DNA from: Catonia carolina
Lineage: Eukaryota; Arthropoda; Insecta; Hemiptera; Achilidae
Assembly: GCA_035578175.1 (NCBI GenBank)
Contig: JAQMRL010000043.1
Span: 62,001-126,000, forward strand
Direction: 5' to 3'
DNA length: 64,000 nucleotides
Under the pieces are notes generated by a model. That model saw only the letters and a program-made list of their open reading frames with translations. It was not told the DNA's origin and ran no database searches. Position numbers and translations under genes: made by a program. Positions 138 through 31,350 of this stretch are shown in pieces; position 1 is the stretch's first letter, and each line of letters begins with the position of its first letter.

Positions 138-228
138 TCAGCTAGTAGTAGTCCGCTCCGTTCGGTTCGGGGTTCGGATTACAAGTGCCGCGCCACTGAA
201 ACTGAAACTGGTAGAAGAGGGAATTTTG

Positions 229-258
229 ACGATATCGTGGGAGTTACCACCTGATCGT
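229..258 (-). other. Conserved two-stem RNA hairpin near the 3' end of element A
   Basis: Sense strand: outer stem ACGAT/ATCGT, internal loop CAG/GAT, inner stem GTGG/CCAC, loop TAACTC. It starts 32 nt from the element 3' end. The same architecture with different base pairs occurs in all nine elements whose 3' end is in the window, so it is probably what the reverse transcriptase recognises. Confidence 0.8.
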
Positions 259-386
259 TCGGAGAAAAATAACAGAACTGGGGTCTCTTCGTAAGAGAGT
301 TACGGAAGGGTAATTGAAGTAATAAATTAGTTTCAGAGTCATGGGCTGTGGGGCTGTATTGGGAATAATTTACGAAGTATTACCTT

Positions 387-416
387 GTTTCACGTGATAT
401 AAATATCACACGAAAC
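387..416 (-). other. Long imperfect hairpin in the 3' UTR of element A
   Basis: Inverted repeat GTTTC-AC-GTGATAT-AA-ATATCAC-AC-GAAAC: 12 pairs with a symmetric two-base internal loop. Element D has an AT-rich hairpin at the corresponding place (about 24952-24987). Role unknown. Confidence 0.6.
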
Positions 417-473
417 TAGGCTGGGCGGGCGGGACTAACGTTGACAGTTCAACTGGCCGAGAATAGTCGCGGC

Positions 474-3134
474 TTACAAGTAGTCGTGGAACGGCAGACG
501 GCGTATCCATTCGAGCTTGGCGGTGTCGTAGATGTTTCTGACGAGCTCGATGTCCGACGTCTTGTTGTTGTCGTGCAGCTTCCTCGACGTGGCGTGGATG
601 TGTTCTTCGAGTGAAGGAAGGAGAAGGTGTTCGTGTACGATGGAGTTAGGAATAAGGTAGTGAAAGTTGGCGATTAGGCGGAGGGCACGGTTCTGGAAAG
701 AGATGAATTTTTGACGGTGAGATTTGGCTAGGATGGGCCACCAGACTGGTGACCCGTAGAGCATGAAGGAGCGGATGATGGCCGAGTAGATGAGGAGTTT
801 GAGGGTGTTACGGAGACCTCTCGACCGTAGGACAGGTGTTAGTTGATAGAGAAGGATTCTGCTCTTACGGAGTTTCTCTTCGGCGTGCTTGGCGAAGTTT
901 AGTCTTCTGTCCAGTGTGACTCCCAAGTACTTCACACTGGTCGCCCATGGAAGCTGGTGGTCGTCGATCTTAAGCGGCACTGGTTGCCGCCTCTTCGTTG
1001 AGAAGTTGATCGCCTCGCATTTCTGTGGGTTGAGGGAGAGTTTCCAAGTGGAGCACCACTTGGTAATGAGGAGGAGTTGTTTTTGTAGGTGGCACTTGTT
1101 AAGGCGTAAGGATGGGCTTGAGCGGTAAAGGATGATGTCGTCGGCGTACATGCCGGTCCGGGTTGTGGGTAGGAGAGGAATATCATTTGCGTAAGCAAGG
1201 TAGAGTATTGGACCGAGGACCGAGCCTTGAGGGACTCCGGCTCGGATCGGTTTGACAGAAGAGGTGACGGTGTGGTAGTGTTGGGACGGAGAAGTGACAT
1301 AAAAGGTTCTGTTAGTGAGGTAGGAGTTCATCAGGCGGATGATGGGAGGAGGAAAGAGCAAGGAAAGTTTGTATAGGAGCCCCAAGTGCCACACCTTGTC
1401 GAATGCTGCCTTGAAGTCAAGGAGCACCGCCGTAGTGTCGCGCTTGGTGTTGGTAGCGTTGATGATGTCGGTTGTGAGCCGAAGGAGCTGGAGGGTGGTG
1501 GATCTCTGTTTCCGAAAGCCAAATTGCTCTGGTCGGAGAACAGGGTCGAGTGTTTGGGTTAGGTAGGGCAGGAGTAGTCTCTCAAATAACTTTGAGAAGA
1601 TGGGTAGGAGAGAAATCGGGCGGTAGCTGGAAGGATCGGTGGGCGGCTTGTGCGGTTTAGGAATGACGCAGACCTTGGAGAGTTTCCAAGCTGCGGGGAA
1701 GTGTTGGGTTGTGAGGATGGCGTTGAAGATTTGGAGGAGGTGAGGTTTTAAGTGAGGTGGTGAGTTGAGTATGGCCCGTCCGGTGATGTCGTCGGGGCCA
1801 GGTACCTTTCTCGGATTGATGGAGCGGATGACGGAGAGGAGGTCGTCGTCTGTGAATGGTGGTAGGTTTAAGGGTGTAGGGTCGGCGAGTGTAGTGGAGA
1901 CAGATTGCGTGATATGGTCTAAGTGGTCGGGATCGGTGTCGGTCTGGTTGTCGGTAAAGTGGGACTCGAAATGCGAGGCGAAGGTCTCGGCGATTCCATG
2001 GGCGGAGTACTGCTTCCCATCAGGCGTGTTGAGAGGGTGACTGGTCCGTGGTTTCCGAAGTAGCTTCCTCGTGGCGTCCCAGGGGTTGTTGCCATCGTCG
2101 AGCGTGGCCAGGTATTCCTCCCAGCTCCGAGAACGGTGCTGGGCGAGGAGATACCGGCATCTCGCTGCCGCTCGGTTGAAGAGTAGTCGATGGCGTGGAT
2201 CCCCGGTCAGCTGCCAGAGTCGTCTGCATCGGCGTCGGTCGCTGATGGCGTTGCGAACAGCCGCTGGTAGGCCAGAACGGGTTTGTGGCGAAGGTAGAGA
2301 TGATGAGGCGGTGAGGCTTGAGTGAAGAAGGTCGGTTAGGTATAGGATGTGCCGATCGATGTGATCGGGGGTGAGCAAGGTTGGCGGGTTAGGAGGTAGG
2401 GCGCCGTCGACTGAGGCGTGGAAGGAGTCCCAGTCGACTTTGCGGGTAGGAGGAGTTTGTTTGGTGAAGTTAGGCGAGTGGAATTGGAAAAGAACTGGAA
2501 GGTGGTCAGAACCCAAGTCGTTAATTACTTGGGTGTCTGGTAGGTATGGTAAGGAGACGGATACACCGTAGTCCAGTATGTCCGGGGTGTGTCCTTGCAG
2601 GTGGGTGTGGGTAGGTGAGTCGGGGATGTGTAGCGAGATTGGAAGCGGTAGGTCTTGAAGGAAGTGAAGGAGTTCTGTGCCAGCGGTGTTCGTGGATCCA
2701 CAACCGATGTCGCGATGCTTGGCGTTCCAGTCACCCCCGATGAAGAGCGGCCGTTGAATCTTGAACAACTCCGTAAGAGCAGTAGGATGAAAGTGGGTGC
2801 ACGGTGGTCTGTACACTGACACGAATGTGACAGGTACAGAGCCGATAGGAACAGAAACTGCAATAGTTTCAAGGAGAGGAATGGTTGGTGTTGTGAGGAG
2901 GCTGTGGGTGTGGCGCTTATGAATCATAATTGCCACACCACCATGGGCTATTCGGGTATTAGGTCGATCGGATCGGTATATGATATACGGAGAGAGCTTG
3001 AAGGATTTATGAGGTTGAAGGAAGGTTTCTTGAAGTAGGACAACATCCACGTCGTGCTCTTCGAGGAATCGCTGCAGGTCGTTCTTATGCTGTTGGATAC
3101 TCGCTGCGTTCCAGGTGACTACTGTAAAAGGCAT
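474..3134 (-). CDS. ORF2 of element A: endonuclease-reverse transcriptase
   Basis: 886 aa, close to the usual Jockey-clade ORF2 length. The N-terminal third is an APE-like endonuclease: TWNAA near residue 8, LLQET (catalytic Glu) near 35, GGDWNAKH near 135, and SDHLPV near 210. The RT domain follows: YRPISLLPIFSKLFE, VLLDFKAAFDKVWH (motif A), AGVPQGSVLGP, and MYADD (motif C, the YADD form; lineages B, C, D-like relatives vary between FADD and YADD). The C-terminal region contains the KYLGVTLD and LYGSPVWW motifs typical of the clade. No RNase H was recognised. The start ATG overlaps the ORF1 stop (TAATG at 3134), suggesting termination-reinitiation. All key residues are present, so the protein could be active. 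Confidence 0.95.
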   Translation of the reverse strand: MPFTVVTWNAASIQQHKNDLQRFLEEHDVDVVLLQETFLQPHKSFKLSPYIIYRSDRPNTRIAHGGVAIMIHKRHTHSLLTTPTIPLLETIAVSVPIGSVPVTFVSVYRPPCTHFHPTALTELFKIQRPLFIGGDWNAKHRDIGCGSTNTAGTELLHFLQDLPLPISLHIPDSPTHTHLQGHTPDILDYGVSVSLPYLPDTQVINDLGSDHLPVLFQFHSPNFTKQTPPTRKVDWDSFHASVDGALPPNPPTLLTPDHIDRHILYLTDLLHSSLTASSSLPSPQTRSGLPAAVRNAISDRRRCRRLWQLTGDPRHRLLFNRAAARCRYLLAQHRSRSWEEYLATLDDGNNPWDATRKLLRKPRTSHPLNTPDGKQYSAHGIAETFASHFESHFTDNQTDTDPDHLDHITQSVSTTLADPTPLNLPPFTDDDLLSVIRSINPRKVPGPDDITGRAILNSPPHLKPHLLQIFNAILTTQHFPAAWKLSKVCVIPKPHKPPTDPSSYRPISLLPIFSKLFERLLLPYLTQTLDPVLRPEQFGFRKQRSTTLQLLRLTTDIINATNTKRDTTAVLLDFKAAFDKVWHLGLLYKLSLLFPPPIIRLMNSYLTNRTFYVTSPSQHYHTVTSSVKPIRAGVPQGSVLGPILYLAYANDIPLLPTTRTGMYADDIILYRSSPSLRLNKCHLQKQLLLITKWCSTWKLSLNPQKCEAINFSTKRRQPVPLKIDDHQLPWATSVKYLGVTLDRRLNFAKHAEEKLRKSRILLYQLTPVLRSRGLRNTLKLLIYSAIIRSFMLYGSPVWWPILAKSHRQKFISFQNRALRLIANFHYLIPNSIVHEHLLLPSLEEHIHATSRKLHDNNKTSDIELVRNIYDTAKLEWIRRLPFHDYL

Positions 3135-4381
3135 TACGAGAGTAACAAGGGGAGCGATGAAATTACCGTAGAGATTATCTCATCTAAAGATTGCGCAGTG
3201 GCGAGCTTCTGTAACGTCTGAATGGCCCAGTTCAAGAATTTCGGCGACGTTATCAGTGTGAAAAAGTTGGCACTGGAGGGCTTTGGCTCAGGTGGAGCAG
3301 AAGTGGTTGGTTTCGTCGGAAGGGCGGGGAAGTCCGAGCTCTTATGATGAAATACTGGCCTACTGGGGTTGATTATCACCGGTTGTGCCTGGGTAAAATG
3401 CCTAGTTGGTGGAGAAGTGTTCCTCGGTGACGAGGTTTTGTAAATAGTCTTACGGACCGTCTGCCGGGCCGGTGGGGAGATTGGGGAGCTAGCCGGCCCG
3501 GCTTTAGAATGAGAAGGGACAGGGGTTGGAGCGGTAGAGCTCGGCTGTGCAGTCGCTGTCGAAGTCGTTGCTGGTCGTTGTTGCTGCTGTCTTCTTCTCT
3601 GCAGTGTCTTGTGTGCAGGGCACCCCCGGTAGTTAGCCGGGTGGTTACCCTGACAGTTGCAGCACGTTGGGGCCTCCTGCAGTGTTCTACAATCCTTGGC
3701 GTCATGCTCCCCTCCGCACTTGACGCATCGGGGCGCATGGCAGCAGTTGACAGACGAATGGCCGAAGCGCTGGCATCTAAAACACTGCGGCAGGCCCGGA
3801 CGACTCTTGAAAGCTTCGATCGTGACAGCGACGTTGAAGAGCTGGTGGATGAAATATATCTCCGTCGAGTTGGCCTCCTTCCTGATCCGGACGTAGAAGA
3901 CATTTATGGGGCGTCCCCCTAAACCTTTTATAGGCTGGACTAAGGTGACGGTGTGACCCGCCACCTGTAGTGCCAGCTTGATGTCTGCCGGATCAGTGCT
4001 GTAGTGCAGTCCCTTTATTGCAACCTTGATGTCGGCGGGCTCATCGAGGTGGTAGGTATGAAAGTATACCCCCTCCTCGATGAACAACGCACGGATGGTC
4101 TTAAAATCAGCAACGGTGGAGCTCCGAAGCATGTAGGTGGAGCCCTTGCAGGTCACCACATACTTCGAAGAAACCGCCGCGCTGATTTTTGAAGAAAGTG
4201 CAGTCCACGCCGTTGGCACCTTAAAAACCAACGGCGGGATTTTGGGACACCCTGTAGAAGGTGTCCCGCTCGTCTCGGTTGACCCTGTAGATGATGATGA
4301 TGATGATGCAGTGTCTGGTCGTTGACGCTTGCGTGCAACGACCTCCACGAAGTCTTCTGGCGAAGGCTGGTCACACTCCAT
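3134..4381 (-). CDS. ORF1 of element A: nucleic-acid-binding protein
   Basis: 415 aa RNA-binding protein expected to coat element RNA. It has a low-complexity Ser/Thr-rich N-terminus, an RRM-like middle, then a PRE_C2HC-like segment beginning near IKGLHYSTDPADIK. Three zinc knuckles follow: CFRCQRFGHSSVNC, CVKCGGEHDAKDC and CCNCQGNHPANYRGC. A Gln/Thr/Pro-rich linker precedes a short helical C-terminus (FLNWAIQTLQKL). The start at 4381 lies only 31 nt from the element 5' end. Confidence 0.93.
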   Translation of the reverse strand: MECDQPSPEDFVEVVARKRQRPDTASSSSSSTGSTETSGTPSTGCPKIPPLVFKVPTAWTALSSKISAAVSSKYVVTCKGSTYMLRSSTVADFKTIRALFIEEGVYFHTYHLDEPADIKVAIKGLHYSTDPADIKLALQVAGHTVTLVQPIKGLGGRPINVFYVRIRKEANSTEIYFIHQLFNVAVTIEAFKSRPGLPQCFRCQRFGHSSVNCCHAPRCVKCGGEHDAKDCRTLQEAPTCCNCQGNHPANYRGCPAHKTLQRRRQQQQRPATTSTATAQPSSTAPTPVPSHSKAGPASSPISPPARQTVRKTIYKTSSPRNTSPPTRHFTQAQPVIINPSRPVFHHKSSDFPALPTKPTTSAPPEPKPSSANFFTLITSPKFLNWAIQTLQKLATAQSLDEIISTVISSLPLLLS

Positions 4382-4450
4382 GATGTTACCTCTTCGGTGT
4401 CTCTGGAGCGTATGCCGCGCCAGAATCCAGAATCCAGAATCCAGGTTGAG

Positions 4451-4466
4451 AGGGCTAAGAAGCCCT
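4451..4466 (-). other. Terminal 6-bp/4-nt hairpin of element B-1
   Basis: Sense strand AGGGCT-TCTT-AGCCCT, about 30 nt from the 3' end. It has the same stem and loop sizes as the host histone stem-loop (GGCCCT-TTTC-AGGGCC), but a different stem sequence. Confidence 0.6.
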
Positions 4467-4472
4467 ATGTTG

Positions 4473-4503
4473 GCGACGTCGTGTAAGTGTTACACATGGT
4501 CGC
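4473..4503 (-). other. Conserved two-stem RNA hairpin, element B-1
   Basis: Sense strand: outer stem GCGAC/GTCGC, internal loop CAT/GAC, inner stem GTGTAA/TTACAC, loop CAC. Its base pairs differ from those in A, C, D and E, yet pairing is kept. Confidence 0.8.
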
Positions 4504-4773
4504 TCGTAGAACACATTATCGGAACTAATGTAACCTCAGGTAAGAATCAGGAGAATATTGAGGGTTATAAATTGGATTCGGATTCGGTCGAAACAAGCTT
4601 TGAGCAGGGAAAGGTGGGGAAAACTGCCAGATAATTGAAGTTATTAATTTTGAGGGTTTAGAAAATTTTTAGGTGTTTAATTAATGGTAGGTGGATGAAT
4701 ATATATTGTATAGGGGATGGGATAATTATTTGGTAGGAAAAACGGCTCTTTTCTTTTAATAATTGACTAGTTG

Positions 4774-4776
<3 letters not shown>

Positions 4777-4838
<62 letters not shown>
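4777..4838 (-). repeat. Internal A-tract (62 T on + strand) in B-1 3' UTR
   Basis: A homopolymer that is poly(A) on the element sense strand. It lies about 130 nt after the ORF2 stop and 350 nt before the true 3' end, so it is not the terminal tail. It is followed on the sense strand by GGCCAACTAG and then AAAAGAGCCG, motifs shared with C and E. Confidence 0.85.
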
Positions 4839-4840
<2 letters not shown>

Positions 4841-4967
4841 GGTGTGGTGATTTTTTAGGAAAGGTTCTTATTGAAAACTCTGTAATGTGTAGGTGTTTGT
4901 ATGTGTTACGTGGGAGTCATTTGTTAAGGGAGTATGTTATGGCGCGGGAGTTGTAGTTTACTGGGTG

Positions 4968-7640
4968 TTAGGGGAAATCGTGGAACGGTAGATTGATGTA
5001 AACTTCGGGCGGGTGAGGCGTGGTGTAAATCTCTCTGATGATGGGGTGTCTTGAAGTTCTGGCGGAGTCGTGAAGTTTTCTGGAGGTTGTGTAGATATAG
5101 CTTTCTAGGGAAGGGAAGAGTAAGCTTTCGTGGACTATGACGTTATTGATAAGGTAATGGACTTTAGTGATGCGGCGGAGAATTTTGTTTTGGAAAGCGG
5201 CTGTTTTACGTTTGTTGGACTTGGAGAGGAGTGGCCACCAGACAGGTGAGCCATATAGAAGGTAGGGACGAAGAATTGACGAGTACATGAGGAGTTTGAG
5301 TTTTGTAGAGAAGGATTTTGAATTAAGTAGGGGCGAAAGAGTGGCGAGGAGAACCCTGCCCTTGCATAGTTTGTCCTCGATGTGGCGACGGAGAGTGAGG
5401 CGCTTGTCCAGTATTACTCCCAGGTAGCGGACGCTGTCCTGCCATGGGAGTAGTTGTCCTTCCAGGCGTAGTGGCGGCGGGAGATTCCGCTTGCGGGTGA
5501 ATTGGATTGCCTCACACTTTGTGGGATTGAGGGTGAGTCTCCAGATGCGACACCATGTAGTGATATTTAACAGATGATTTTGGATTGCGCGGCAGTTGAG
5601 GCGGAGGCATCTGCCGTGACGGTATAAAATAGCGTCATCAGCAAACAGTCCGAGTTTGATTGTTTCGGTTTCCGGAAAATCGTAGGTGTACATAAGATAG
5701 AGAAGGGGGCCAAGGACTGAGCCCTGAGGTACACCTGCGGTAGATAGGGTAAGTGGGGATTTGATTGAGTGGAACTGATAACTGGGGGCTGAGACTTGAA
5801 ATTTTCTGTCAGTAAGATACGAATGGATGAGCCTGACAGTGGCTGGTGGGAAGAAACGAGCTAGTTTGAAGAGGAGACCCACGTGCCATACTCTGTCAAA
5901 TGCTGCTTTAAAGTCAAGCAGCACAGCCGTCGTATGGTTGTGGGAGTTTCTGGCATCCACTAGTGCCGTTACGATGCGGAGGAGTTGGGTGGTGGTGGAG
6001 TGTCCTTGTCTAAAACCAAATTGTTCGGCAGGAATCGCTGATTCGATGGTTTGGCGCAGACGTGGGAGAAGAAGTCTTTCGAAAAGTTTAGATAATATTG
6101 GAAGAAGGGAAATTGGCCTATAGCTTCCGGGGTCTGTTGGGGGTTTGTGGGGCTTGAGTATGGTGATGATGTTAGAGATCTTCCATGAAGCGGGGAAGTG
6201 CTGCAGTGCAATAACTGCATTGAAAATAGATAAGAGGTGGGGCTTGAGCTCTGGTGGAGAGTTCAGGATGGCGTATCCGGAGATGTTGTCGGGGCCTGGG
6301 GCTTTTCTGGGATTGATTGATTTGATTACCGAAGTAACCTCATCAATCGTGAAAGGTTGAAAGTGGCAGGGAGTAGGGTCGGAGAGAGTGGTGGAAACCA
6401 CACTGTGAATTATTTCATCCAGTTCGGGATGAACGGGTGGGGGAGTTTGAAAATGGAGTTCAAAGTGTGAGGCGAAGGTGTTTGCCGTCTCTTGCGCCGA
6501 GTATGCCAGTCCGTTCGGAGTCTGAAGTGGGTGTGTCCTCCTCTGGGTTGACAGTAGTCGGCGCGCAGCCTCCCATGGCCTGCCGTTGTCCGCTACGTGT
6601 TCAAGGTACTCCTCCCATTGACTGGATTTATGCTGGTCGACGAGGAGCTTGCATCTGGCAGCGGCGTGATTGAAGAGCTGACGGCGGCGGGGGTCCCTCG
6701 TTCGCTGCCAGAGCCGACGGTAACGTCGTCTGTCCGCGATTGCTGCCTTCACTGCAGGCGGGAGGGATGACCTGGTCTGGGGTGGGCGTGGGGAAGTATT
6801 TTGATTAATGCTTTGGGAGAGTAGCGAGGAGATCGTCTGGAGATGTCGTTCCAGCTCGGGGATAGAATTGATCGTGGGAGGTTCTGGGGGAAGTTGCGAA
6901 TTTACAGTGTCAAAGAAGGACGGCCAGGAGACTTTGTTTTTGGCGGGCGGTGCTTGGGTATTTGAAGTAGGGGAAGTAAAAGTAAATAGAACAGGGAGAT
7001 GATCTGAGTTTAACTCAGGAAGGACATCGATGTCGGGGATAGAGGTGAAGTTGACCGAGGCGGCGTAATCGAGGATGTCGGGCAGATGAGTGCGTGTTGA
7101 GGGTATTCTGGTGGCTGTAGTTGGGAAATGAAGGGCTAGTGGCAGGGGAGTTTCTTCTAGAAAGGTAAGAAGTGTGGCGCCTGCAGTGTTCGTCGTGCGG
7201 CAGCCGATGTCGACGTGCTTGGCGTTCCAGTCGCCGGCCACGAATGCTGGGTGTTGTTGCGTGAAGATGGCGGCAAGGGCAGAGGGGTCGAAGTCGTTGG
7301 AAGACGGGGGGCGATATACGGAGGTGAAGGTTACTAATTGAGAGAAGAGGGGTACTGTGACTGAAATGTGTTCTAAGGAAGGAATAGGGGCTGTATCTAG
7401 GAGGTTATGCGTATGGCGTTTATGGATAAGGATAGCTACCCCTCCTGCTGGGCGATTGGTAACAGGAGGGCGGTCGGTACGGTATACTATGTACGGGGAT
7501 AATTTAAAGCGTGTGTGTGGGTGGAAGTGAGTTTCTTGGAGTAAAGCTATATCTACGTTGAGGTCTAGTAGAAGTCGGTGGAGGTCGTTCCGTTGGCGAG
7601 AGATTCCGTTTCCGTTCCACGAAAGGATTCGAAAGGTCAT
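4968..7640 (-). CDS. ORF2 of element B-1: endonuclease-reverse transcriptase
   Basis: 890 aa. Endonuclease signature: SWNGNG near residue 7, LLQETH near 34, GDWNAKH near 137, SDHLPV near 213. RT signature: YRPISLLPILSKLFE, AVLLDFKAAFDRVWH, AGVPQGSVLGPLLY and FADDAILYR (FADD form of motif C). The C-terminal RYLGVILD and LYGSPVWWP motifs are present. It differs from B-2 at scattered residues and is the most diverged of the three B copies, consistent with a separate insertion. The start is coupled to the ORF1 stop (TAATG at 7640). Confidence 0.95.
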   Translation of the reverse strand: MTFRILSWNGNGISRQRNDLHRLLLDLNVDIALLQETHFHPHTRFKLSPYIVYRTDRPPVTNRPAGGVAILIHKRHTHNLLDTAPIPSLEHISVTVPLFSQLVTFTSVYRPPSSNDFDPSALAAIFTQQHPAFVAGDWNAKHVDIGCRTTNTAGATLLTFLEETPLPLALHFPTTATRIPSTRTHLPDILDYAASVNFTSIPDIDVLPELNSDHLPVLFTFTSPTSNTQAPPAKNKVSWPSFFDTVNSQLPPEPPTINSIPELERHLQTISSLLSQSINQNTSPRPPQTRSSLPPAVKAAIADRRRYRRLWQRTRDPRRRQLFNHAAARCKLLVDQHKSSQWEEYLEHVADNGRPWEAARRLLSTQRRTHPLQTPNGLAYSAQETANTFASHFELHFQTPPPVHPELDEIIHSVVSTTLSDPTPCHFQPFTIDEVTSVIKSINPRKAPGPDNISGYAILNSPPELKPHLLSIFNAVIALQHFPASWKISNIITILKPHKPPTDPGSYRPISLLPILSKLFERLLLPRLRQTIESAIPAEQFGFRQGHSTTTQLLRIVTALVDARNSHNHTTAVLLDFKAAFDRVWHVGLLFKLARFFPPATVRLIHSYLTDRKFQVSAPSYQFHSIKSPLTLSTAGVPQGSVLGPLLYLMYTYDFPETETIKLGLFADDAILYRHGRCLRLNCRAIQNHLLNITTWCRIWRLTLNPTKCEAIQFTRKRNLPPPLRLEGQLLPWQDSVRYLGVILDKRLTLRRHIEDKLCKGRVLLATLSPLLNSKSFSTKLKLLMYSSILRPYLLYGSPVWWPLLSKSNKRKTAAFQNKILRRITKVHYLINNVIVHESLLFPSLESYIYTTSRKLHDSARTSRHPIIREIYTTPHPPEVYINLPFHDFP

Positions 7641-8932
7641 TAGGCGAGAAGGGAGGGCAGAGATGAGATTATGACGGTGATTGCTTCGGGGATGGATTTT
7701 ACAGTAGTTAAGCGTGGAAGTAAGGCGAGTGCCCAGGTTAGAAATTTAGGGGCGGTGAGAAATTTGATGATGCCTTGAATTGAGAAGGGGGCATCATCGG
7801 AAGGAGGGTCGTTGGATTTTTTGGCTGGAAGTGGTGGAATAGGCTTCCAGGGTGATTGAACTGGTTCCTTGGGGAGAGTGGGAAATTTCGATACAGGGAC
7901 GGGTTTACGTTCTGCAGGTTTTTTAAAGATGGTTTTGTTGTACGTTTTTTGTTGTGGTGCTGAAGAGGTAGAGGGGGTTGGAGGTTGGGTACTGGAAGTA
8001 GAAGGGCGGGACGGAACCGATGAGGCCGGTGGTCGTGCAGCTGTTGTCTTGGTAGCGGTCGAATTCCTTCTTCGGTCTGCTAGGAGCTTCACGTGGGTAG
8101 GGCACCCGCGGTAATTAGCCGGATGCTGCCCTTTGCAGTTGCAGCATACCGGGTCTTCTATGATCTTGGCAACGCACTGAGCTGCGTCATGCTGGTCTCC
8201 GCACTTCACGCATCGCAGCTCGTGGTTGCAGTTGACTGACGAGTGCCCATACCGTTGGCATTTGAAGCACTGGGGTAGACCAGGTCGGGGCCTGAAAGCC
8301 TCGACCGTTACCATGATTGAAAGAATTGAAGTAAGATTGTAGATTTTTTCGTAGTTTTGTGTCTTCTGTAATTTAATGAGAAAAACGTTAATTTTCTTGC
8401 CTGCACGGCCGTTTAAATTTTGACAGTGGTTGACTTTAAACCCCTTTTCTGTCAGAAATTCTGTTATGTCGTCCGGACTGAATGAAGAGTGGAGGCCCTT
8501 TACGGCGATTTTCACCTCATCTGGTTCCTGTGTGTAGTAGGAGTGGAAGTTTAACCCTTCCGATAAAAGGACAGTTTTAGCTTGATTGTAGTCTTGTATG
8601 GACTGTGTGTATAGAGAGTTGGAATTCCCACGAGTGGTTATTCTGTATGAATAAGTGAGGTGTGTTGTAAGAGCTTTCAATATAGTGGTGAAGTTAGGGG
8701 GTGATCGGAACACAAAGGGTGGCAGTGTGTATTTAGAAGCGAAAGTAGAAGTGGTTGATTGTGGAATGTTAGTAGTGGGTGAGGGGGAGGGGTCGGTTAC
8801 ATTGTTAGATAATGTGCCGGCGTTACCTGAATCTGCTAGTTGTTGAATTCTTGGTCGTTTGCTGGTGACGGTGGTGTAGCCTTCGTCGGTAGGAATGTCC
8901 ATTCCTACCTGGGTGGGCTGCGGCGTTGTCAT
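7640..8932 (-). CDS. ORF1 of element B-1: zinc-knuckle protein
   Basis: 430 aa. The N-terminus is MTTPQPTQVGMDIP, where the H2A-site copies read MAT. A PRE_C2HC-like segment starts at VKGLHSSFSPDDI, followed by knuckles CFKCQRYGHSSVNC, CVKCGDQHDAAQC and CCNCKGQHPANYRGC. A Thr/Pro/Ser linker and a hydrophobic C-terminus follow. A conserved hairpin (8944-8972) ends 11 nt upstream of the start codon. Confidence 0.93.
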   Translation of the reverse strand: MTTPQPTQVGMDIPTDEGYTTVTSKRPRIQQLADSGNAGTLSNNVTDPSPSPTTNIPQSTTSTFASKYTLPPFVFRSPPNFTTILKALTTHLTYSYRITTRGNSNSLYTQSIQDYNQAKTVLLSEGLNFHSYYTQEPDEVKIAVKGLHSSFSPDDITEFLTEKGFKVNHCQNLNGRAGKKINVFLIKLQKTQNYEKIYNLTSILSIMVTVEAFRPRPGLPQCFKCQRYGHSSVNCNHELRCVKCGDQHDAAQCVAKIIEDPVCCNCKGQHPANYRGCPTHVKLLADRRRNSTATKTTAARPPASSVPSRPSTSSTQPPTPSTSSAPQQKTYNKTIFKKPAERKPVPVSKFPTLPKEPVQSPWKPIPPLPAKKSNDPPSDDAPFSIQGIIKFLTAPKFLTWALALLPRLTTVKSIPEAITVIISSLPSLLA

Positions 8933-8943
8933 TTCCTGGGACA

Positions 8944-8972
8944 GTGTTGCCAGTTTTTCCCACTAGCAACAC
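8944..8972 (-). promoter_or_regulatory. 5' UTR hairpin just upstream of B-1 ORF1
   Basis: Sense strand GTGTTGCTAGT / ACTGGCAACAC: 11 pairs including one G-U, with a 7-nt loop. Element E has the equivalent hairpin (60244-60274), with the G-U replaced by C-G. It may influence ORF1 initiation or packaging. Confidence 0.65.
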
Positions 8973-9025
8973 TCTTCTCCTTCTTCCCAGGAGGTAGTAG
9001 TTTAAGAAGTTCTGGTAGTCGCTCG

Positions 9026-9057
9026 TTCAGTAGGTCCGCTCCGTGCGGGGTTCAGAT
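9026..9057 (-). other. H3-leader-like segment at the 5' end of element B-1
   Basis: On the minus strand this reads GAACCCCG, then ACGGAGCGGAC, then a CTGAA block. The same blocks occur in the same order in the host H3 5' UTR (24668-24710), with small gaps. The same segment is present in B-2 (15287-15318) and B-3 (51011-51042). Confidence 0.75.
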
Positions 9058-9085
9058 CGAGAGTAATAACACCATGCCGCGCCAC

Positions 9086-9612
<527 letters not shown>

Positions 9613-10256: not shown

Positions 10257-10733
<477 letters not shown>

Positions 10734-10739
10734 ATGTTG

Positions 10740-10770
10740 GCGACGTCGTGTAAGTGTTACACATGGTCGC
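10740..10770 (-). other. Conserved two-stem RNA hairpin, element B-2
   Basis: Same sequence as B-1: GCGAC/GTCGC outside and GTGTAA/TTACAC inside. Confidence 0.8.
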
Positions 10771-11044
10771 TCGTAGAACACATTATCGGAACTAATGTAA
10801 CCTCAGGTAAGAATCAGGAGAATATTGAGGGTTATAAATTGGATTCGGATTCGGTCGAGACAAGCTGTGAGCAGGGAAAGGTGGGGAAATCTGCCAGATA
10901 ATTGAGGGTATTCATTTTGAGGGTTTAGAAAATTTTGAGGTGTATAATAAATGGTAGGTGGATGAATATATATATTGTATAGGTAGATGGGATAATTATT
11001 AGATAGGAAAAAACGGCTCTTTTCTTTTAATAATTGATTAGTTG

Positions 11045-11047
<3 letters not shown>

Positions 11048-11096
<49 letters not shown>
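11048..11096 (-). repeat. Internal A-tract of B-2 3' UTR
   Basis: 49 T on the plus strand, shorter than the 62 in B-1. It lies in the same place relative to the ORF2 stop. Confidence 0.85.
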
Positions 11097-11098
<2 letters not shown>

Positions 11099-11228
11099 GG
11101 TGTGGTGATTTTTTTTTAGGAAAGGTTCTTATTGAAAGCTCTATGTAATGTGTAGGTGTTTGTGTGTTACGTGGGAGTCATTTGTTAAGGGAGTATGTTA
11201 TGGCGCGGGAGTTGTAGTTTACTGGGTG

Positions 11229-13901
11229 TTAGGGGAAATCGTGGAACGGTAGATTGATGTAAACTTCGGGCGGGTGAGGCGTGGTGTAAATCTCTCGGAT
11301 GATGGGGTGTCTTGAAGTTCTGGCGGAGTCGTGAAGTTTTCTGGAGGTTGTGTAGATATAGCTTTCTAGGGAAGGGAAGAGTAAGCTTTCGTGGACTATG
11401 TCGTTATTGATAAGGTAATGGACTTTAGTGATGCGGCGGAGAATTTTGTTTTGAAAAGCGGCTGTTTTACGTTTGTTGGACTTGGAGAGGAGTGGCCACC
11501 AGACAGGTGAGCCATATAGAAGGTAGGGACGAAGAATTGACGAATACATGAGGAGTTTGAGTTTTATAGAGAAGGATTTTGAATTAAGTAGGGGCGAAAG
11601 AGTGGCGAGGAGAACCCTGCCCTTGCACAGTTTGTCCTCGATGTGGCGACGGAGAGTGAGGCGCTTGTCCAGTATTACTCCCAGGTAGCGGACGCTGTCC
11701 TGCCATGGGAGCAGTTGTCCTTCTAGGCGTAGTGGCGGCGGGAGATTCCTCTTGCGGGTGAATTGGATTGCCTCACACTTTGTGGGATTGAGGGTGAGTC
11801 TCCAGATGCGACACCATGTAGTGATATTTAACAGATGATTTTGGATTGCGCGGCAGTTGAGGCGGAGGCATCTGCCGTGACGGTATAAAATAGCGTCATC
11901 AGCAAACAGTCCGAGTTTGATTGTTTCGGTTTCCGGAAAATCGTAGGTGTACATAAGATAGAGAAGGGGCCCAAGGACTGAGCCCTGAGGTACACCTGCG
12001 GTAGATGGGGTAAGTGGGGATTTGATTGAGTGGAACTGATAACTGGGGGCTGAGACTTGAAATTTTCTGTCAGTAAGATACGAATGGATGAGCCTGACAG
12101 TGGCTGGTGGGAAGAAACGAGCTAGTTTGAAGAGGAGACCCACGTGCCATACTCTGTCAAATGCTGCTTTAAAGTCAAGCAGCACAGCCGTCGTATGGTT
12201 GTGGGAGTTTCTGGCATCCACTAGTGCCGTTACGATGCGGAGGAGTTGGGTGGTGGTGGAGTGTCCTTGTCTAAAACCAAATTGTTCGGCAGGGATCGCT
12301 GATTCGATGGTTTGGCGCAGACGTGGGAGAAGAAGTCTTTCGAAAAGTTTAGATAATATTGGAAGAAGGGAAATTGGCCTATAGCTTCCGGGGTCTGTTG
12401 GGGGTTTGTGGGGCTTGAGTATGGTGATGATGTTAGAGATCTTCCATGAAGCGGGGAAGTGCTGCAGTGCAATAACTGCATTGAAAATAGATAAGAGGTG
12501 GGGCTTGAGCTCTGGTGGAGAGTTCAGGATGGCGTATCCGGAGATGTTGTCGGGGCCTGGGGCTTTTCGGGGATTGATTGATTTGATTACCGAAGTAACC
12601 TCATCGATCGTGAAAGGTTGAAAGTGGCAGGGAGTAGGGTCGGAGAGAGTGGTGGAAACCACTCTGTGAATTATTTCATCCAGTTCGGGATGAACGGGTG
12701 GGGGAGTTTGAAAATGGAGTTCAAAGTGTGAGGCGAAGGTGTTTGCCGTCTCTTGGGCCGAGTATGCCAGTCCGTTCGGAGTCCGCAGTGGGTGTGTCCT
12801 CCTCTGGGTTGACAGTAGTCGGCGCGCAGCCTCCCATGGCCTGCCGTTGTCCGCTACGTGTTCAAGGTACTCCTCCCATTGACTGGATTTATGCTGGTCG
12901 ACGAGGAGCTTGCATCTGGCAGCGGCGTGATTGAAGAGCTGACGGTGGCGGGGGTCCCTCGTTCGCTGCCAGAGCCGACGGTAACGTCGTCTGTCCGCGA
13001 TTGCTGCCTTCACTGCAGGCGGGAGGGATGACCTGGTCTGAGGTGGGCGTGGGGAAGTATTTTGAATAATGCTTTGGGAGAGTAGCGAGGAGATCGTCTG
13101 GAGATGTCGTTCCAGCTCGGGGATAGAATTGATCGTGGGAGGTTCTGGGGGAAGTTGCGAATTTACAGTGTCAAAGAAGGACGGCCAGGAGACTTTGTTT
13201 TTGGCGGGCGGTGCTTGGGTATTTGAAGTAGGGGAAGTAAAAGTAAATAGAACAGGGAGATGATCTGAGTTTAACTCAGGAAGGACATCGATGTCGGGGA
13301 TAGAGGTGAAGTTGACCGAGGCGGCGTAATCGAGGATGTCGGGCAGATGAGTGCGTGTTGGGGGTATTCTGGTGGCTGTAGTTGGGAAATGAAGGGCTAG
13401 TGGCAGGGGAGTTTCATCTAGAAAGGTAAGAAGAGTGGCGCCTGCAGTGTTCGTCGTGCGGCAGCCGATGTCGACGTGCTTGGCGTTCCAGTCGCCGGCT
13501 GCGAATACAGGGTGTTGCTGCGTGAAGATGGCGGCAAGGGCAGAGGGGTCGAAGTCGTTGAAAGACGGGGGGCGATATACGGAGGTGAAGGTTACTAATT
13601 GAGAGAAGAGGGGTACTGTGACTGAAATGTGTTCTAAGGAAGGAATAGGGGCTGTATCTAGGAGGTTATGCGTATGGCGTTCATGGATAAGGATAGCTAC
13701 CCCTCCTGCTGGGCGATTGGTAACAGGAGGGCGGTCGGTGCGGTATACTATGTACGGGGATAATTTAAAGCGTGTGTGTGGGTGGAAGTGAGTTTCTTGG
13801 AGTAAAGCTATATCTACGTTGAGGTCTAGTAGAAGTCGGTGGAGGTCGTTCCGTTGGCGAGAGATCCCGTTTCCGTTCCACGAAAGGATTCGAAAGGTCA
13901 T
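11229..13901 (-). CDS. ORF2 of element B-2: endonuclease-reverse transcriptase
   Basis: 890 aa, with all endonuclease (LLQETH, GDWNAKH, SDHLPV) and RT (LLDFKAAFDRVWH, GVPQGSVLGP, FADD) residues. It differs from the unit 3 copy at, for example, HERHTH in place of HKRHTH near residue 74. Start coupled to ORF1 by TAATG at 13901. Confidence 0.95.
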   Translation of the reverse strand: MTFRILSWNGNGISRQRNDLHRLLLDLNVDIALLQETHFHPHTRFKLSPYIVYRTDRPPVTNRPAGGVAILIHERHTHNLLDTAPIPSLEHISVTVPLFSQLVTFTSVYRPPSFNDFDPSALAAIFTQQHPVFAAGDWNAKHVDIGCRTTNTAGATLLTFLDETPLPLALHFPTTATRIPPTRTHLPDILDYAASVNFTSIPDIDVLPELNSDHLPVLFTFTSPTSNTQAPPAKNKVSWPSFFDTVNSQLPPEPPTINSIPELERHLQTISSLLSQSIIQNTSPRPPQTRSSLPPAVKAAIADRRRYRRLWQRTRDPRHRQLFNHAAARCKLLVDQHKSSQWEEYLEHVADNGRPWEAARRLLSTQRRTHPLRTPNGLAYSAQETANTFASHFELHFQTPPPVHPELDEIIHRVVSTTLSDPTPCHFQPFTIDEVTSVIKSINPRKAPGPDNISGYAILNSPPELKPHLLSIFNAVIALQHFPASWKISNIITILKPHKPPTDPGSYRPISLLPILSKLFERLLLPRLRQTIESAIPAEQFGFRQGHSTTTQLLRIVTALVDARNSHNHTTAVLLDFKAAFDRVWHVGLLFKLARFFPPATVRLIHSYLTDRKFQVSAPSYQFHSIKSPLTPSTAGVPQGSVLGPLLYLMYTYDFPETETIKLGLFADDAILYRHGRCLRLNCRAIQNHLLNITTWCRIWRLTLNPTKCEAIQFTRKRNLPPPLRLEGQLLPWQDSVRYLGVILDKRLTLRRHIEDKLCKGRVLLATLSPLLNSKSFSIKLKLLMYSSILRPYLLYGSPVWWPLLSKSNKRKTAAFQNKILRRITKVHYLINNDIVHESLLFPSLESYIYTTSRKLHDSARTSRHPIIREIYTTPHPPEVYINLPFHDFP

Positions 13902-15193
13902 TAGGCGAGAAGGGAGGGCAGAGATGAGATGATGACGGTGATTGCTTCGGGGATTGATTTTACAGTAGTTAAGCGTGGGAGTAAGGCGAGTGCCCAGGTT
14001 AGAAATTTAGGGGAGGTGAGAAATTTGATGATGCCTTGAATTGAGAAGGGGGCATCATCGGAAGGAGGGTCATTGGATTTTTTGGCTGGAAGTGGTGGAA
14101 TAGGCTTCCAGGGTGATTGAACTGGTTCCTTGGGGAGAGTGGGAATTTTCGATACAGGGACGGGTTTACGTTCTGCGGGTTTTTTAAAGATGGTTTTGTT
14201 ATACGATTTTTGTTGTGGAGCTGAAGAGGTAGAGGGGGTTGGAGACTGGGTACTTGAAGTGGAAGGGCGGGACGGAACCGATGAGGCCGGTGGTCGTGCA
14301 GCTGTTGTCTTGGTAGCGGTCGAATTCCTTCTTCTGTCTGCTAGGAGCTTCACGTGGGTAGGGCACCCGCGGTAATTAGCCGGATGCTGCCCTTTGCAGT
14401 TGCAGCATACCGGGTCTTCAATGATTTTGGCAACGCACTGAGCTGCGTCATGCTGGTCTCCGCACTTCACGCATCGCAGCTCGTGGTTGCAGTTGACTGA
14501 CGAGTGCCCATACCGTTGGCATTTGAAGCACTGGGGTAGACCAGGCCGGGGCCTGAAAGCCTCGACCGTTACCATGATTGAAAGAATTGATGTTAGGTTG
14601 TAGATTTTCTCGTAGTCTTGTGTCTTCTGTAGTTTAATGAGAAAAACGTTAATTTTCTTGCCTGCACGGCCGTTTAAATTTTGACAGTGGGTGACTTTAA
14701 ACCCCTTTTCTGTCAGGAATTCTGTTATGTCGTCCGGACTGAATGAAGAGTGTAGGCCCTTTACGGCGATTTTCACCTCATCTGGTTCCTGTGTGTAGTA
14801 GGAGTGGAAGTTTAACCCTTCCGATAAAAGGACAGTTTTAGCTTGGTTGTAGTCTTGTATAGACTGTGTGTATAGAGAGTTGGAATTCCCACGAGTGGTT
14901 ATTCTGTATGAATAAGTGAGGTGTGTTGTAAGAGCTTTCAATATAGTGGTGAAGTTAGGGGGTGATCGGAACACAAAGGGTGGCAGTGTGTATTTAGAAG
15001 CGAAAGTAGAAGTGGTTGATTGTGGAATGTTAGTAGTGGGTGAGGGGGAGGGGTCGGTTACATTGTTAGATAATGTGCCGGCGTTACCTGAATCTGCTAG
15101 TTGTTGAATTCTTGGTCGTTTGCTGGTGACGGTGGTGTAGCCTTCGTCGGTAGGAATGTCCATTCCTACCTGGGTGGGCTGCGGCGTTGCCAT
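13901..15193 (-). CDS. ORF1 of element B-2: zinc-knuckle protein
   Basis: 430 aa, starting MATPQPTQVGMDIP. Three knuckles end in CCNCKGQHPANYRGC. It differs from B-3 by FLTSPKFL in place of FLTAPKFL near the C-terminus. Nothing disrupts it. Confidence 0.93.
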   Translation of the reverse strand: MATPQPTQVGMDIPTDEGYTTVTSKRPRIQQLADSGNAGTLSNNVTDPSPSPTTNIPQSTTSTFASKYTLPPFVFRSPPNFTTILKALTTHLTYSYRITTRGNSNSLYTQSIQDYNQAKTVLLSEGLNFHSYYTQEPDEVKIAVKGLHSSFSPDDITEFLTEKGFKVTHCQNLNGRAGKKINVFLIKLQKTQDYEKIYNLTSILSIMVTVEAFRPRPGLPQCFKCQRYGHSSVNCNHELRCVKCGDQHDAAQCVAKIIEDPVCCNCKGQHPANYRGCPTHVKLLADRRRNSTATKTTAARPPASSVPSRPSTSSTQSPTPSTSSAPQQKSYNKTIFKKPAERKPVPVSKIPTLPKEPVQSPWKPIPPLPAKKSNDPPSDDAPFSIQGIIKFLTSPKFLTWALALLPRLTTVKSIPEAITVIISSLPSLLA

Positions 15194-15204
15194 TTCCTGG
15201 GACA

Positions 15205-15233
15205 GTGTTGCCAGTTTTTCCCACTAGCAACAC
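15205..15233 (-). promoter_or_regulatory. 5' UTR hairpin upstream of B-2 ORF1
   Basis: Identical to the B-1 hairpin; it ends 11 nt before the ORF1 ATG. Confidence 0.65.
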
Positions 15234-15337
15234 TCTTCTCCTTCTTCCCAGGAGGTAGTAGTTTAAGAAGTTCTGGTAGTCGCTCGTTCAGTAGGTCCGC
15301 TCCGTGCGGGGTTCAGATCGAGAATACACGGCCGCAC

Positions 15338-15590
15338 TTTAACCGCCGCTATATTTACGTGGTCGGTCGTGCTCTCCTATTGGTCGGGTCGCTGCTGCCT
15401 GTCGCTGATTGGCTACCGTTACTGCAGTCACGAAATAGAGCTCTCCTATTAGGTCGGGTAGCTGCAGCCTGTCGCCGATTGGCTACCGTTACTGCAGTCA
15501 CGAAATGGAGCTCTCCTATTGGTCGGGCCGTTTTCAGCCTCCCTCCGATTGGCTGCGGTTACTGCGGTCTTACGACGTAAATACAAGCGC
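15338..15590. promoter_or_regulatory. Divergent H2A/H2B promoter, unit 1, with triplicated CCAAT repeat
   Basis: 253 bp, the same length in every unit. Left edge: H2A TATA-like box (TAAATATA on minus, 15350-15359). Right edge: H2B TAAATAC (15578-15584). Between them are three tandem copies of a 69-70 bp unit starting at 15371, 15440 and 15510, carrying CTCCTATTGG and GATTGGCT (inverted CCAAT) and GTTACTGC. In this unit both outward promoters run into transposons (B-2 left, C-1 right). Confidence 0.8.
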
Positions 15591-15809
15591 ACCGAAAGTT
15601 CTCCAGTGACTCCTAGTGAACTTGTATCATCAGTTCTTGACGAGAACCATCACTAGTTACGAGCCGTCCTCCAGTCGACTCCACGACGAGGACCTCCATT
15701 AGGCACGAGCTGTCCTTTTCTGCATTTACTCACTAAGGTTGTTTATAATATAAAATAAGGTTTAGCAGAACTGGACACTCCGCCTATAAGTAGCGCCGGC
15801 CTGTGGGAG

Positions 15810-17144
15810 ATGGCGGCGCCTACCACACCAGCACCTGCACTCGCAGCAGCGAACAACTCTATCCAGCCTACACCATCAACATCTGTAACACCATCACCAT
15901 CAACTTCTACAGCTGCGACTAGCATGGACGTGTCGAACACAGAAGAGTTCCACGTCGTGCAGCGCAAACGCTCCAGGACCAACTCTGACGGCAACACTAC
16001 TAACTCCACTACAACCTCAACCCCTGTTAACGCTTCAACTAAAAAATTCACGGTTCCTCCCTTTGTTTTTCGGGCGCCAACCAACTGGTCCGGTATTACT
16101 AAACTTCTAAATACTCACCTATCAGAGTCGTATAAGGTCACTACCCGTGGCAATTCGTACTCTCTGTTCACCAAGAACATCAACGACTACCAAAACTGTA
16201 AGACTGTCCTCCTTTCCGAGGGCATCAACTTCCACAGTTATTACACTCAGGAACCCGAAGAAATCAAAGTCGCCATCAAAGGGCTTCACTCCTCGTTCGA
16301 TCCGGAGGAAATTAAACAAGATCTGTGTGAGCGTGGTTTCGAGGTGAGCCACTGCCAAAACATCTCTGGTAGAGCAGGTAGACCTCTCAACGTCTTTCTA
16401 GTTAAAATTAAAAAATCACCTCACTTTGATGCAATATACAAGATCCAATCGATCTTTAGCATTGTTGTGACCGTGGAGGCCTTCCGCCCGCGGCCAGGTC
16501 TACCGCAGTGTTTTAAATGCCAGCGATTTGGCCATTCTTCAGTTAACTGTAATCGTGAACTGCGTTGTGTAAAGTGTGGGGAGAAACACGACGCGGCTCA
16601 CTGTTCAGGTAAGCTGATCGAAGAGCCCAAGTGCTGTAACTGCAACGGCCAGCACCCCGCTAACTACCGGGGGTGCCCGATGCACATTAAGCTCCTCGCG
16701 GAGAGACGTAGGAGCGCGACCCAATCGACGATGACGGCCACCACCTCTTCGTCCCCTTCTACTTCTACTTCGAAAACTCAAACCGTTCCGAAGAGCCCTG
16801 CTCCGGTACCTTCTGCCCCTGTTCAACGTACTTTCAATAAAACCTTCACCAAACAGGTCCCTGCACGTAAGCCAGTGCAACAAAATACTTTTCCTACCAC
16901 TTCTAATTGGGTCTCTGGGCCATCCAAGCCCGTCTTTGTAGGCAAAGATTTTCCGCCTCTCCCGGCAAAACAAGCCCCTCGAACAGACAGCAACGTCTTC
17001 AACATAAACTCTATTATTCAGTTCCTAACATCGCCCAAATTTCTTTCTTGGATGGCAGCAATCATCCCTAAACTTTCAACTGTTACCTCCGCTTCAGAAG
17101 CAATTACCCTATTTTTATCAACTCTGCCCTCCCTACTTTCGTAA
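15810..17144 (+). CDS. ORF1 of element C-1: zinc-knuckle protein
   Basis: 444 aa. A Thr/Ser/Ala-rich N-terminus (1-80) leads into FVFRAPTNWSGITKLL, then an RRM-like region. A PRE_C2HC-like segment covers about 158-215. Zinc knuckles lie at 234-247, 253-265 and 275-289 (HPANYRGC), with a low-complexity linker and a C-terminal helix. The ATG follows GCCTGTGGGAG and is conserved in C-3 and F, which supports this start. Confidence 0.94.
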   Translation: MAAPTTPAPALAAANNSIQPTPSTSVTPSPSTSTAATSMDVSNTEEFHVVQRKRSRTNSDGNTTNSTTTSTPVNASTKKFTVPPFVFRAPTNWSGITKLLNTHLSESYKVTTRGNSYSLFTKNINDYQNCKTVLLSEGINFHSYYTQEPEEIKVAIKGLHSSFDPEEIKQDLCERGFEVSHCQNISGRAGRPLNVFLVKIKKSPHFDAIYKIQSIFSIVVTVEAFRPRPGLPQCFKCQRFGHSSVNCNRELRCVKCGEKHDAAHCSGKLIEEPKCCNCNGQHPANYRGCPMHIKLLAERRRSATQSTMTATTSSSPSTSTSKTQTVPKSPAPVPSAPVQRTFNKTFTKQVPARKPVQQNTFPTTSNWVSGPSKPVFVGKDFPPLPAKQAPRTDSNVFNINSIIQFLTSPKFLSWMAAIIPKLSTVTSASEAITLFLSTLPSLLS

Positions 17145-19817: not shown

Positions 19818-20276
19818 TAGATATGTATAACACGACTCTCCCAGTACGTCCCCTACCTAAGTTGGTTGGTTTAAATCCCCGCTTAAATTCGCATAATCAT
19901 ACTCTAAAAGAGCCGACACCTACACTGTAAAATAAAAACAAAGGCCACTAAAGCACAAGAGCCGATAAATACACACAATACTTAAGGCCAATGATTATGC
20001 CTCCCCAACCGTCTAAATTATGAATCCCCTCGTACGACTACCCACACTTTTATTACCTATCCACATGTTACGCGCTAGTGCCCTCCGGTCCAAAGCCACA
20101 CACATACTAAAAGGTTCGCTTAAAAACTAATAATAAATTCTAACTATTTACTGAACCATCTTACACTTCCCTAGCCCACTACATTAAAAACTCTAATAAC
20201 ACTTAAAATTCTAATCATATATAAAACTCCCCTGTTTCTACCCGAGGTTGTATTAATCTGTAAATTTGTTCCCCGA

Positions 20277-20306
20277 GCGATCAGGTGTTCCTTAACACGG
20301 TATCGC
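20277..20306 (+). other. Conserved two-stem RNA hairpin, element C-1
   Basis: Outer stem GCGAT/ATCGC, internal loop CAG/GGT, inner stem GTGTT/AACAC, loop CCTT. It starts 71 nt from the tail end and matches the structure in A, B, D and E by pairing, not by identical sequence. Confidence 0.8.
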
Positions 20307-20406
20307 CAACACTTAGCCATAGAGCTACCTCAACCCGAACCGAACCGAGTTCGCCTCACTCCACGTTCGACACTAGCGACGAGCAGCAGCAAGCAACCAA
20401 CCGACC

Positions 20407-22895: not shown

Positions 22896-23546
22896 ATGTC
22901 AGACAGCGCAGCATCAGCAGCTACTCCGGCCGCAGCAGTGGCGTCGACGCCGGCGAAGGCCGCGCCTGGGAAGAAGGCCGGCTCTAAATCGTCGGCGGCG
23001 GCCAGCAAGAAGCCGAGATCGAAGCCAGCACACCCGCCGACCGCCGATATGGTGAACGCAGCGATCGCCGGCCTGAAAGAGCGAGGCGGCTCTTCACTGC
23101 AGGCGATCAAGAAGTACATCGCGGCCAACTACAAGGTGGACGCCGAGAAATTGGCCCCGTTCATAAAGAAGTACCTCAAGTCGGCAGTCGCGTCGGGCGC
23201 TCTCACCCAGCCGAAAGGCAAGGGTGCGTCCGGCTCGTTCAAGATCAGCGTGAAAGGCGAAGGCAAGACCGGCGGAAGCGCTCCCGCTAAGAAGAAGCCG
23301 TCGTCGGCCGCGCCTAAGACCAAGGCAGCAGCGAAGAAACCCGCAGCGTCCGGCAAATCGAAGGCAGCCGCTGCTGGGAAGAAGCAGGCGGCCGCCGTAT
23401 CGGCTCCGAAGAAGGCCAAGTCCCCGTCGAAGGCGAAGAAAGTTTCTAAACCGCCGACCAAGAAACCTAAATCGCCCAAACCGAAGAAGGCAGCGGTGAA
23501 GAAAGCCAAGTCGCCCAAGAAGGCAGCGGCCGGCAAGAAGAAGTAA
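22896..23546 (+). CDS. H1: Linker histone H1, unit 1
   Basis: 216 aa. Ala/Pro/Lys-rich N-tail (1-43). Globular winged-helix domain about 44-118 ([49 protein letters not shown]). Long Lys/Ala C-tail with KSPKK-type CDK sites and a KKAAAGKKK end. The full form contains SPSKAK near residue 179, missing in unit 2. No transposon at its promoter. Confidence 0.98.
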
Positions 23547-24668: not shown

Positions 24669-24756
24669 TCAGCTAGTAGTAGTCCGCTCCGTTCGGTTCG
24701 GGGTTCGGATTACAAGTGCCGCGCCACTGAAACTGAAACTGATAGAAGATATTTAG

Positions 24757-29470: not shown

Positions 29471-29997
<527 letters not shown>

Positions 29998-30640: not shown

Positions 30641-31331
<691 letters not shown>

Positions 31332-31350
31332 ACCGAAAGTTCGCCTCACA

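Follow-up and report, generated by a model that had tools for sequence, protein, structure and literature searches.

The window, by which we mean the whole stretch of 64,000 nucleotides analysed here, contains about four units of a histone gene array with H3, H4, H2A, H2B and H1 genes. Ten copies of non-LTR retrotransposons (E1 to E10) make up 67.5% of it; nine lie wholly within it and the tenth, E10, runs past its edge. Each of the ten copies is inserted in sense orientation in the promoter of an H3, H2A or H2B gene. Counted per promoter copy, elements occupy 4/4 H3 promoters (one of them twice), 2/4 H2A promoters, 3/4 H2B promoters, and none of the four H4 or three H1 promoters. Without elements, the repeat unit measures 6,245 bp. 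Of the 120 best H1 matches listed, the named ones that rank first are from a leafhopper (Macrosteles), a spittlebug (Clastoptera) and a planthopper (Nilaparvata), which makes an auchenorrhynchan bug the probable host. Between H2B and H1 lies a TTTG tandem tract (around 21500-21600, 36780-36880 and 52470-52570), the length of which seems to vary by unit.

The H3 target sites are found on the minus strand. The first, TAAATA-N11-AAG^GT at 9084..9105, is occupied by E2 (4421..9074; ORF1 7640-8932, ORF2 4968-7640) with E1 behind it (197..4412; ORF1 3134-4381, ORF2 474-3134), both on the minus strand. The left target-site duplication of E2, GTGGCGCGGCA, covers 9075..9085 (minus strand), which corresponds to -10 to predicted +1. 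E2 sits inside the left duplication of E1, and a remnant of that duplication, GCGCGGCA (4413..4420, minus strand), is all that separates the two elements. The other H3 sites, likewise with their elements on the minus strand, are at 29469..29490, occupied by E5 (24728..29458; ORF1 27736-29100, ORF2 25055-27736; duplication 29459-29470), at 44810..44831, occupied by E7 (40003..44799; ORF1 43208-44542, ORF2 40535-43207; duplication 44800-44811), and at 60376..60397, where TAAATT replaces TAAATA and E9 is inserted (55686..60366; ORF1 58927-60264, ORF2 56255-58927; duplication 60367-60377).

The H2A sites and their elements are also on the minus strand: 15336..15357 is occupied by E3 (10695..15325; ORF1 13901-15193, ORF2 11229-13901; duplication GTGCGGCCGTGT at 15326-15337) and 51060..51081 by E8, a near-copy of E3 (46418..51049; duplication 51050-51061), while the sites at 31077..31098 and 61984..62005 are empty. 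On the plus strand, the H2B sites hold E4 at 15578..15599 (15602..20348; ORF1 15810-17144, ORF2 17145-19817), E6 at 31319..31340 (31350..35628, 5'-truncated within ORF1; ORF2 32419-35091; duplication 31339-31349) and E10 at 62226..62247 (62256..64000; ORF1 62477-63814; duplication 62246-62255, visible on the left side only); the H2B site at 51302..51323 is empty. E4 has a 4-bp duplication and a short 5' truncation relative to E7.

The initial annotation had claimed that the three target sites share TAAATA-N11-AARGT at a single spacing, and reading all sites in the gene direction bore this out. The H3 site reads TAAATA-GGAGGGTTTTTAAG^GTGGCG, the H2A site TAAATA-TAGCGGCGGTTAAA^GTGCGG and the H2B site TAAATA-CAAGCGCACCGAAA^GTTCGC. 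The exact motif is present in 8/9 occupied promoter copies, the ninth being the fourth H3 promoter with its TAAATT. Across the 64 kb, TAAATA-N11-AARGT has 11 matches where 0.09 are expected, a count reached by none of 100 shuffles. Every one of these matches is an H3, H2A or H2B promoter, eight of them occupied and three empty. By itself, AARGT occurs 315 times in the window, which is not above chance. The element-free unit contains 28 AARGT and 9 TAAATA sites, and the used sites are its only three correctly spaced combinations of the two; if all 28 AARGT had equal odds, nine events would be confined to this one set of three with a chance of about 2 in 10^9. We found no element fragments in the window away from the target sites, the only protein matches there being the extension of the E6 ORF into the H2B promoter.

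Outside the shared boxes the sites have little in common, again as first described for the rest of the 14 nucleotides: the target promoters agree in 3-4 of the 11 N11 bases, and in 1-4 of the 10 bases after GT. The unused H4 promoter agrees with the target promoters in 3-6 of 11 bases in N11 and 3-6 of 10 after GT. Because H4 is at least as similar to the targets as they are to one another and yet unused, overall similarity does not explain which promoters are used. The H4 gene (9301..9612, plus strand; 0/4 units occupied) has TAAATA in its promoter, and where the spacing would place AARGT it reads TTTTTCA|GCGCGG. Upstream of the H1 gene (22896..23546, plus strand; 0/3 units occupied) there is an AAAGT, with no TAAATA at the spacing.

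With numbering from the first T of the TATA box (position 1), AAR^GT is divided between bases 20 and 21, and this is where the 3' end of the element joins. The division keeps its distance of 20 nt to the start of the TATA box in 9/9 occupied promoters, with small shifts of the 3' join in E2, E6 and E7. The join had originally been placed just before GT, directly or within a few bases of microhomology. It is exact in E1, E3, E4, E5, E8 and E9, whereas in E2 and E7 it reads ..CTGGCGCGG, with at least the G of GT lost and a TG assignable to either side, and E6 has extra A's before GT; the 3' end of E10 lies beyond the window. For the 5' side, the left flanks at H2A and H2B were matched to the empty sites of these promoters. 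No H3 site in the window is empty, and the gene-side flank served as the reference for H3. Maximal matching gives duplications of 10 bp in E10, 11 bp in E2 (12 bp when the E1-bearing site that E2 entered is the reference), E6 and E9, and 12 bp in E3, E5, E7 and E8; with E4 at 4 bp, 8/9 measurable copies have 10-12 bp, the duplication of E1 having been cut by E2. Base 1 of the element thus falls at position 31-33 (25 in E4). Since the elements join after base 20 and point in the sense direction, a histone TATA box stands just upstream of each element, and the histone gene behind it keeps only its leader.

These positions can be set against published distances. According to two sources, melting in metazoans begins about 21 bp and the transcription start about 30-35 bp downstream of TATA (PMC11514446), and the upstream edge of the bubble is determined by TATA, not by the start (PMC5055313). 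Together with the observed joins, these distances imply that the duplication would cover the predicted melted segment and that base 1 would lie at the predicted start site, +1 being itself predicted from the distance to TATA. If the A of GCACTTG is +1 in H3, the bases at +18 to +29 fit the MTE consensus.

How many insertions the ten copies represent depends on E3 and E8, which are 99.91% identical with the same junctions and are probably a single event copied with the unit. Counting them as one leaves at least nine insertion events. The sublineages have 54-76% ORF2 identity, that is, up to 46% of residues differ. Within two families, ORF2s that are 97-99% identical are found at different promoters: E2 in H3 with E3/E8 in H2A, and E4/E6 in H2B with E7 in H3. 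As two near-identical families each use two promoters, neither N11 nor the flank can be the sequence that is read. The stacked H3 promoter adds a further constraint. The nesting of E2 in the duplication of E1 suggests that E1 preceded E2, and the already occupied site that E2 entered had retained only the segment that begins with TATA and ends at about +1. Insertion therefore needs no sequence beyond that point, and the site regenerates.

ORF2 is open in 9/9 elements and ORF1 in 9/10 (E6 is truncated), and the QET, GD, SDH and [YF]ADD motifs of the endonuclease and reverse transcriptase are kept in 9/9 ORF2s. Pfam searches found RVT_1 and Exo_endo_phos and no RNase H in both ORF2s scanned (E2 and E4), and PRE_C2HC (PF07530) in 4/4 ORF1s scanned; zinc-knuckle (CCHC) cysteines were identified in ORF1 by eye. 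A structural model of the E1 ORF2 matches L1 ORF2p and the TRAS1 endonuclease, TRAS1 being the closest endonuclease fold among the matches listed. With an AP-like endonuclease, a reverse transcriptase and intact catalytic motifs, these are APE-type non-LTR elements. In the scanned subset, a PRE_C2HC/CCHC ORF1 goes together with an ORF2 that lacks RNase H, a combination which we take to be characteristic of the jockey clade. One weak ORF1 match is named X-element-like, which makes jockey type the best label. In a tree that contained no named jockey reference, the nine ORF2s of the window form one group (100/99 support) beside P0001-P0004, the relatives found by protein search at 44-48% identity. 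No close relatives were confirmed in viral and genome contig collections. The C-terminal LPFHDY/F of ORF2 was considered as an element-specific host-binding motif and dropped, as distant relatives end similarly (RLPQDI, RLPHEF).

The target-site duplications and the 5' truncations of E4 and E6 match target-primed reverse transcription. The last ~130 nt form a conserved hairpin region with 17 predicted pairs, six of which are changed on both sides in a comparison of eight elements, several of them closely related. E1-E9 end in short tandem repeats (TGGATTC, GGACT, CAGTTT, CCTG, CCGAA), and the repeats of E4/E6 are unlike that of E7 despite the likeness of their ORF2s. That the repeat is set by the target was rejected, as E2 and E3 have one repeat at two targets. 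In the 3' region of E2, E3, E8 and E9, about 350 nt before the end, there is an internal run of 42-62 A's (approximately 4779-4840, 11048-11096, 46771-46820 and near 56080, respectively); in E1, E4-E7 and E10 the longest run of A is 5-6.

The insertions, which go back to nine events or more, are all at three sites that follow a single pattern, three copies of which are empty; within the window, the elements are thus site-specific. We consider it fairly probable that they are jockey-type APE LINEs specific for the core promoters of H3, H2A and H2B, that they choose these sites via the promoter, and that they are transcribed from the histone TATA box. More specifically, the ORF2 endonuclease would nick the antisense strand opposite AAR^GT, and the nick would prime reverse transcription of an RNA recognised through the conserved 3' hairpin region; a second nick would follow at about +1. 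Pol II would then start from the histone TATA box, giving an RNA that begins at or beside element base 1, so that each new copy would receive its promoter from the target, probably with histone-like expression in S phase. Target choice would use the promoter itself, most likely via TBP or the Pol II preinitiation complex, and locally the nick would favour AARGT.

Recognition of the core promoter together with AARGT had been put forward in the initial annotation, with bound TBP as a possible guide. The geometry, the at least nine events, the unlike flanks and the empty H4 and H1 promoters speak for such recognition, and promoter switching within two near-identical families and the stacking of E2 on an occupied site fit it further, whereas a part for TBP or Pol II in targeting is what we infer from the sequence. 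A fixed distance to TATA or the start site across unlike promoters, as seen here, is one of the marks of retroelements guided by TBP or the preinitiation complex, of the Ty3 and TRE5-A kind. With three promoters, distance to TATA is inseparable from distance to the start site. Some observations count against our reading: E9 lies behind TAAATT, E4 starts at position 25 with its 4-bp duplication, and leader capture (see below) concerns some sublineages only.

A bolder version, which we think unlikely, takes the insertion to span the DNA melted by Pol II, such that the assembled, perhaps open, preinitiation complex of histone genes in S phase serves as the landing pad and the cuts fall at the melting edge and the start. 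If this were true, target recognition and promoter acquisition would be one and the same act for a LINE, and the next copy would always be given a promoter exactly at its first base.

Alternatively, an element protein, either the endonuclease or the zinc knuckles of ORF1, could read TAAATA-N11-AARGT directly, which would account for the same data, promoters being hit only for carrying this sequence and TBP and Pol II being uninvolved; we regard this as possible, though on the doubtful side. Most of the site-specific elements that are known read DNA. In the window, the bipartite sequence is enough to tell used sites from unused ones (the TAAATT of E9 aside), and ORF1 does carry PRE_C2HC and the putative knuckle cysteines. 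However, the free N11 between the boxes suits a large reader, E9 departs from the sequence, and the agreement of both cuts with the start of melting and the start site would have to be a coincidence. Furthermore, no DNA-binding module besides the endonuclease was seen in ORF2 in the two Pfam scans (E2 and E4), the E1 model or the 50 fold matches listed of 880, which makes tethering through TBP or the preinitiation complex attractive.

It is also conceivable, but highly improbable, that the endonuclease simply finds nucleosome-free histone promoters, in the histone locus body, and cuts at AARGT, the spacing to TATA being incidental. Between -200 and +50 relative to the predicted start, H3, H2A and H2B each have one AARGT, which is the used one, and H4 has none of its own, all as such a mechanism would have it. 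With one AARGT per promoter region, the spacing rule is drawn from three different promoters of a single array. Nevertheless, when each promoter was shuffled and an AARGT required at most 40 nt from TATA, a spacing common to all three arose in 1 of 3,000 trials. AARGT sites at +80 to +97 in H3, H4 and H2A are unused, and so is the AAAGT of H1 (0/3 copies), about 77 nt upstream of the ATG, with the H1 start set arbitrarily at ATG minus 60 in the promoter comparison. Finally, a few founder insertions multiplied with the array, their uniform position coming from copying and not from repeated targeting, would account for E3/E8 but are already refuted for all others. Those can be told apart by their junctions, their truncations, their 3' repeats or their sequence (54-99% ORF2 identity), in an array whose compared histone segments are at least 98.9% identical, so that at least nine events remain and this explanation is barely credible.

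Returning to insertion via the core promoter, we compared the element 5' ends with histone leaders. Apart from H3 itself, nothing in the window matches the H3 leader better than the 5' leader of E2/E3/E8, which is in register with the predicted +1 (alignment score 30, against 27 for the next best place outside H3). The E3 score was reached by 0/20,000 mononucleotide and 11/20,000 dinucleotide shuffles. In registers taken from the first base after the duplication, E3 matches the H3 leader at 13/19 positions (shuffle P 2e-4) and E9 also at 13/19 (P 4e-5), E9 being not significant as a free local alignment (59/300 shuffles as good). E7 matches at 9/19 with one base skipped by hand, and E10, E1 and E5 match at 9/19, 7/19 and 5/19 with duplication bases prefixed by hand so that each starts with A; unrelated histone leaders reach up to 9/19. 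Of the 45 pairings of a leader with an element, two beat all 300 shuffles: H3 with E2 and H3 with E3. An 8-nt match of the E2 5' end to the H2A leader (GTGTTATT), equalled as a local alignment by 14/300 shuffles, is only a hint that E2 may have jumped from H2A to H3. The similarity to the H3 leader in two sublineages hints at transcription from histone promoters; we read it as a sign that certain sublineages, and only those, captured a leader or descend from transcripts that began at H3.

Jockey, X-element and HeT-A/TART/TAHRE resemble the elements described here in having two ORFs, a PRE_C2HC/zinc-knuckle ORF1 and an APE endonuclease with a reverse transcriptase, with no RNase H reported. In contrast to that clade, the window elements insert strictly at histone core promoters, a target for which we know of no jockey-clade member, and what they have in place of a terminal poly(A) is a structured 3' region together with short tandem repeats. 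The Drosophila telomeric retrotransposons belong to the jockey clade. They are likewise tied to a host niche and to S phase (PMC11698117). Jockey-like elements are also regular in the 5S rRNA arrays of Tribolium freemani, an essential multicopy gene array as here, but one made of a Pol III gene and satellite, for which the accessible text reports no TATA-spaced insertion point (PMC11202950).

Closer parallels in geometry come from Pol III genes. Ty3 integration is directed by TBP/Brf1 to between the TATA region and the start (-6/-2, with a 5-bp duplication), yet Ty3 is an LTR element with an integrase and inserts just upstream of the start of Pol III genes (PMC8632968). The window elements, by comparison, are LINEs in Pol II genes, with an insertion that spans to the predicted start. 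For TRE5-A of Dictyostelium, we know of no exact sequence-level join like theirs. TRE5-A is likewise an APE-type non-LTR element that inserts upstream of genes, although its targets are Pol III genes; its ORF1 protein interacts with TBP, Brf1 and Bdp1, and its promoter is enhanced by the upstream tRNA gene (PMC5911963).

Against the R1/R2 group, the elements in the window are set apart by using three protein-gene promoters with unlike flanks that share only the TATA geometry and a 5-nt motif. R1/R2-type insertion is target-primed reverse transcription. Like the window elements, R1/R2 and the elements of spliced-leader, U2 and telomere-repeat sequences insert strictly into multicopy host sequences, and their target list comprises RNA genes, spliced-leader exons, transposons, microsatellites and telomeric repeats, with no protein-gene promoter named there (PMC4640811). 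A search of the open-licence PMC literature found no histone-targeted LINEs. Known site-specific LINEs target RNA genes, repeats or telomeres; here, TATA geometry defines the target, which is the core promoter of three different Pol II genes. The system thus offers a natural tool for asking whether a LINE can read a Pol II preinitiation complex, and how LINEs keep a 5' promoter.

It also bears on how core histones are expressed when many copies have lost their TATA box. Four H3 genes have their beginning in the window. In each of them an element stands between TATA box and leader, and the element appears to occupy the place where the histone transcript should begin; H3 genes in other units of the array may be intact. 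In the H3 gene downstream of E7 (39530-39937, minus strand), one codon is lost (GluAsp to Asp, around residue 105), a change unusual for H3 that perhaps reflects relaxed selection after promoter loss.
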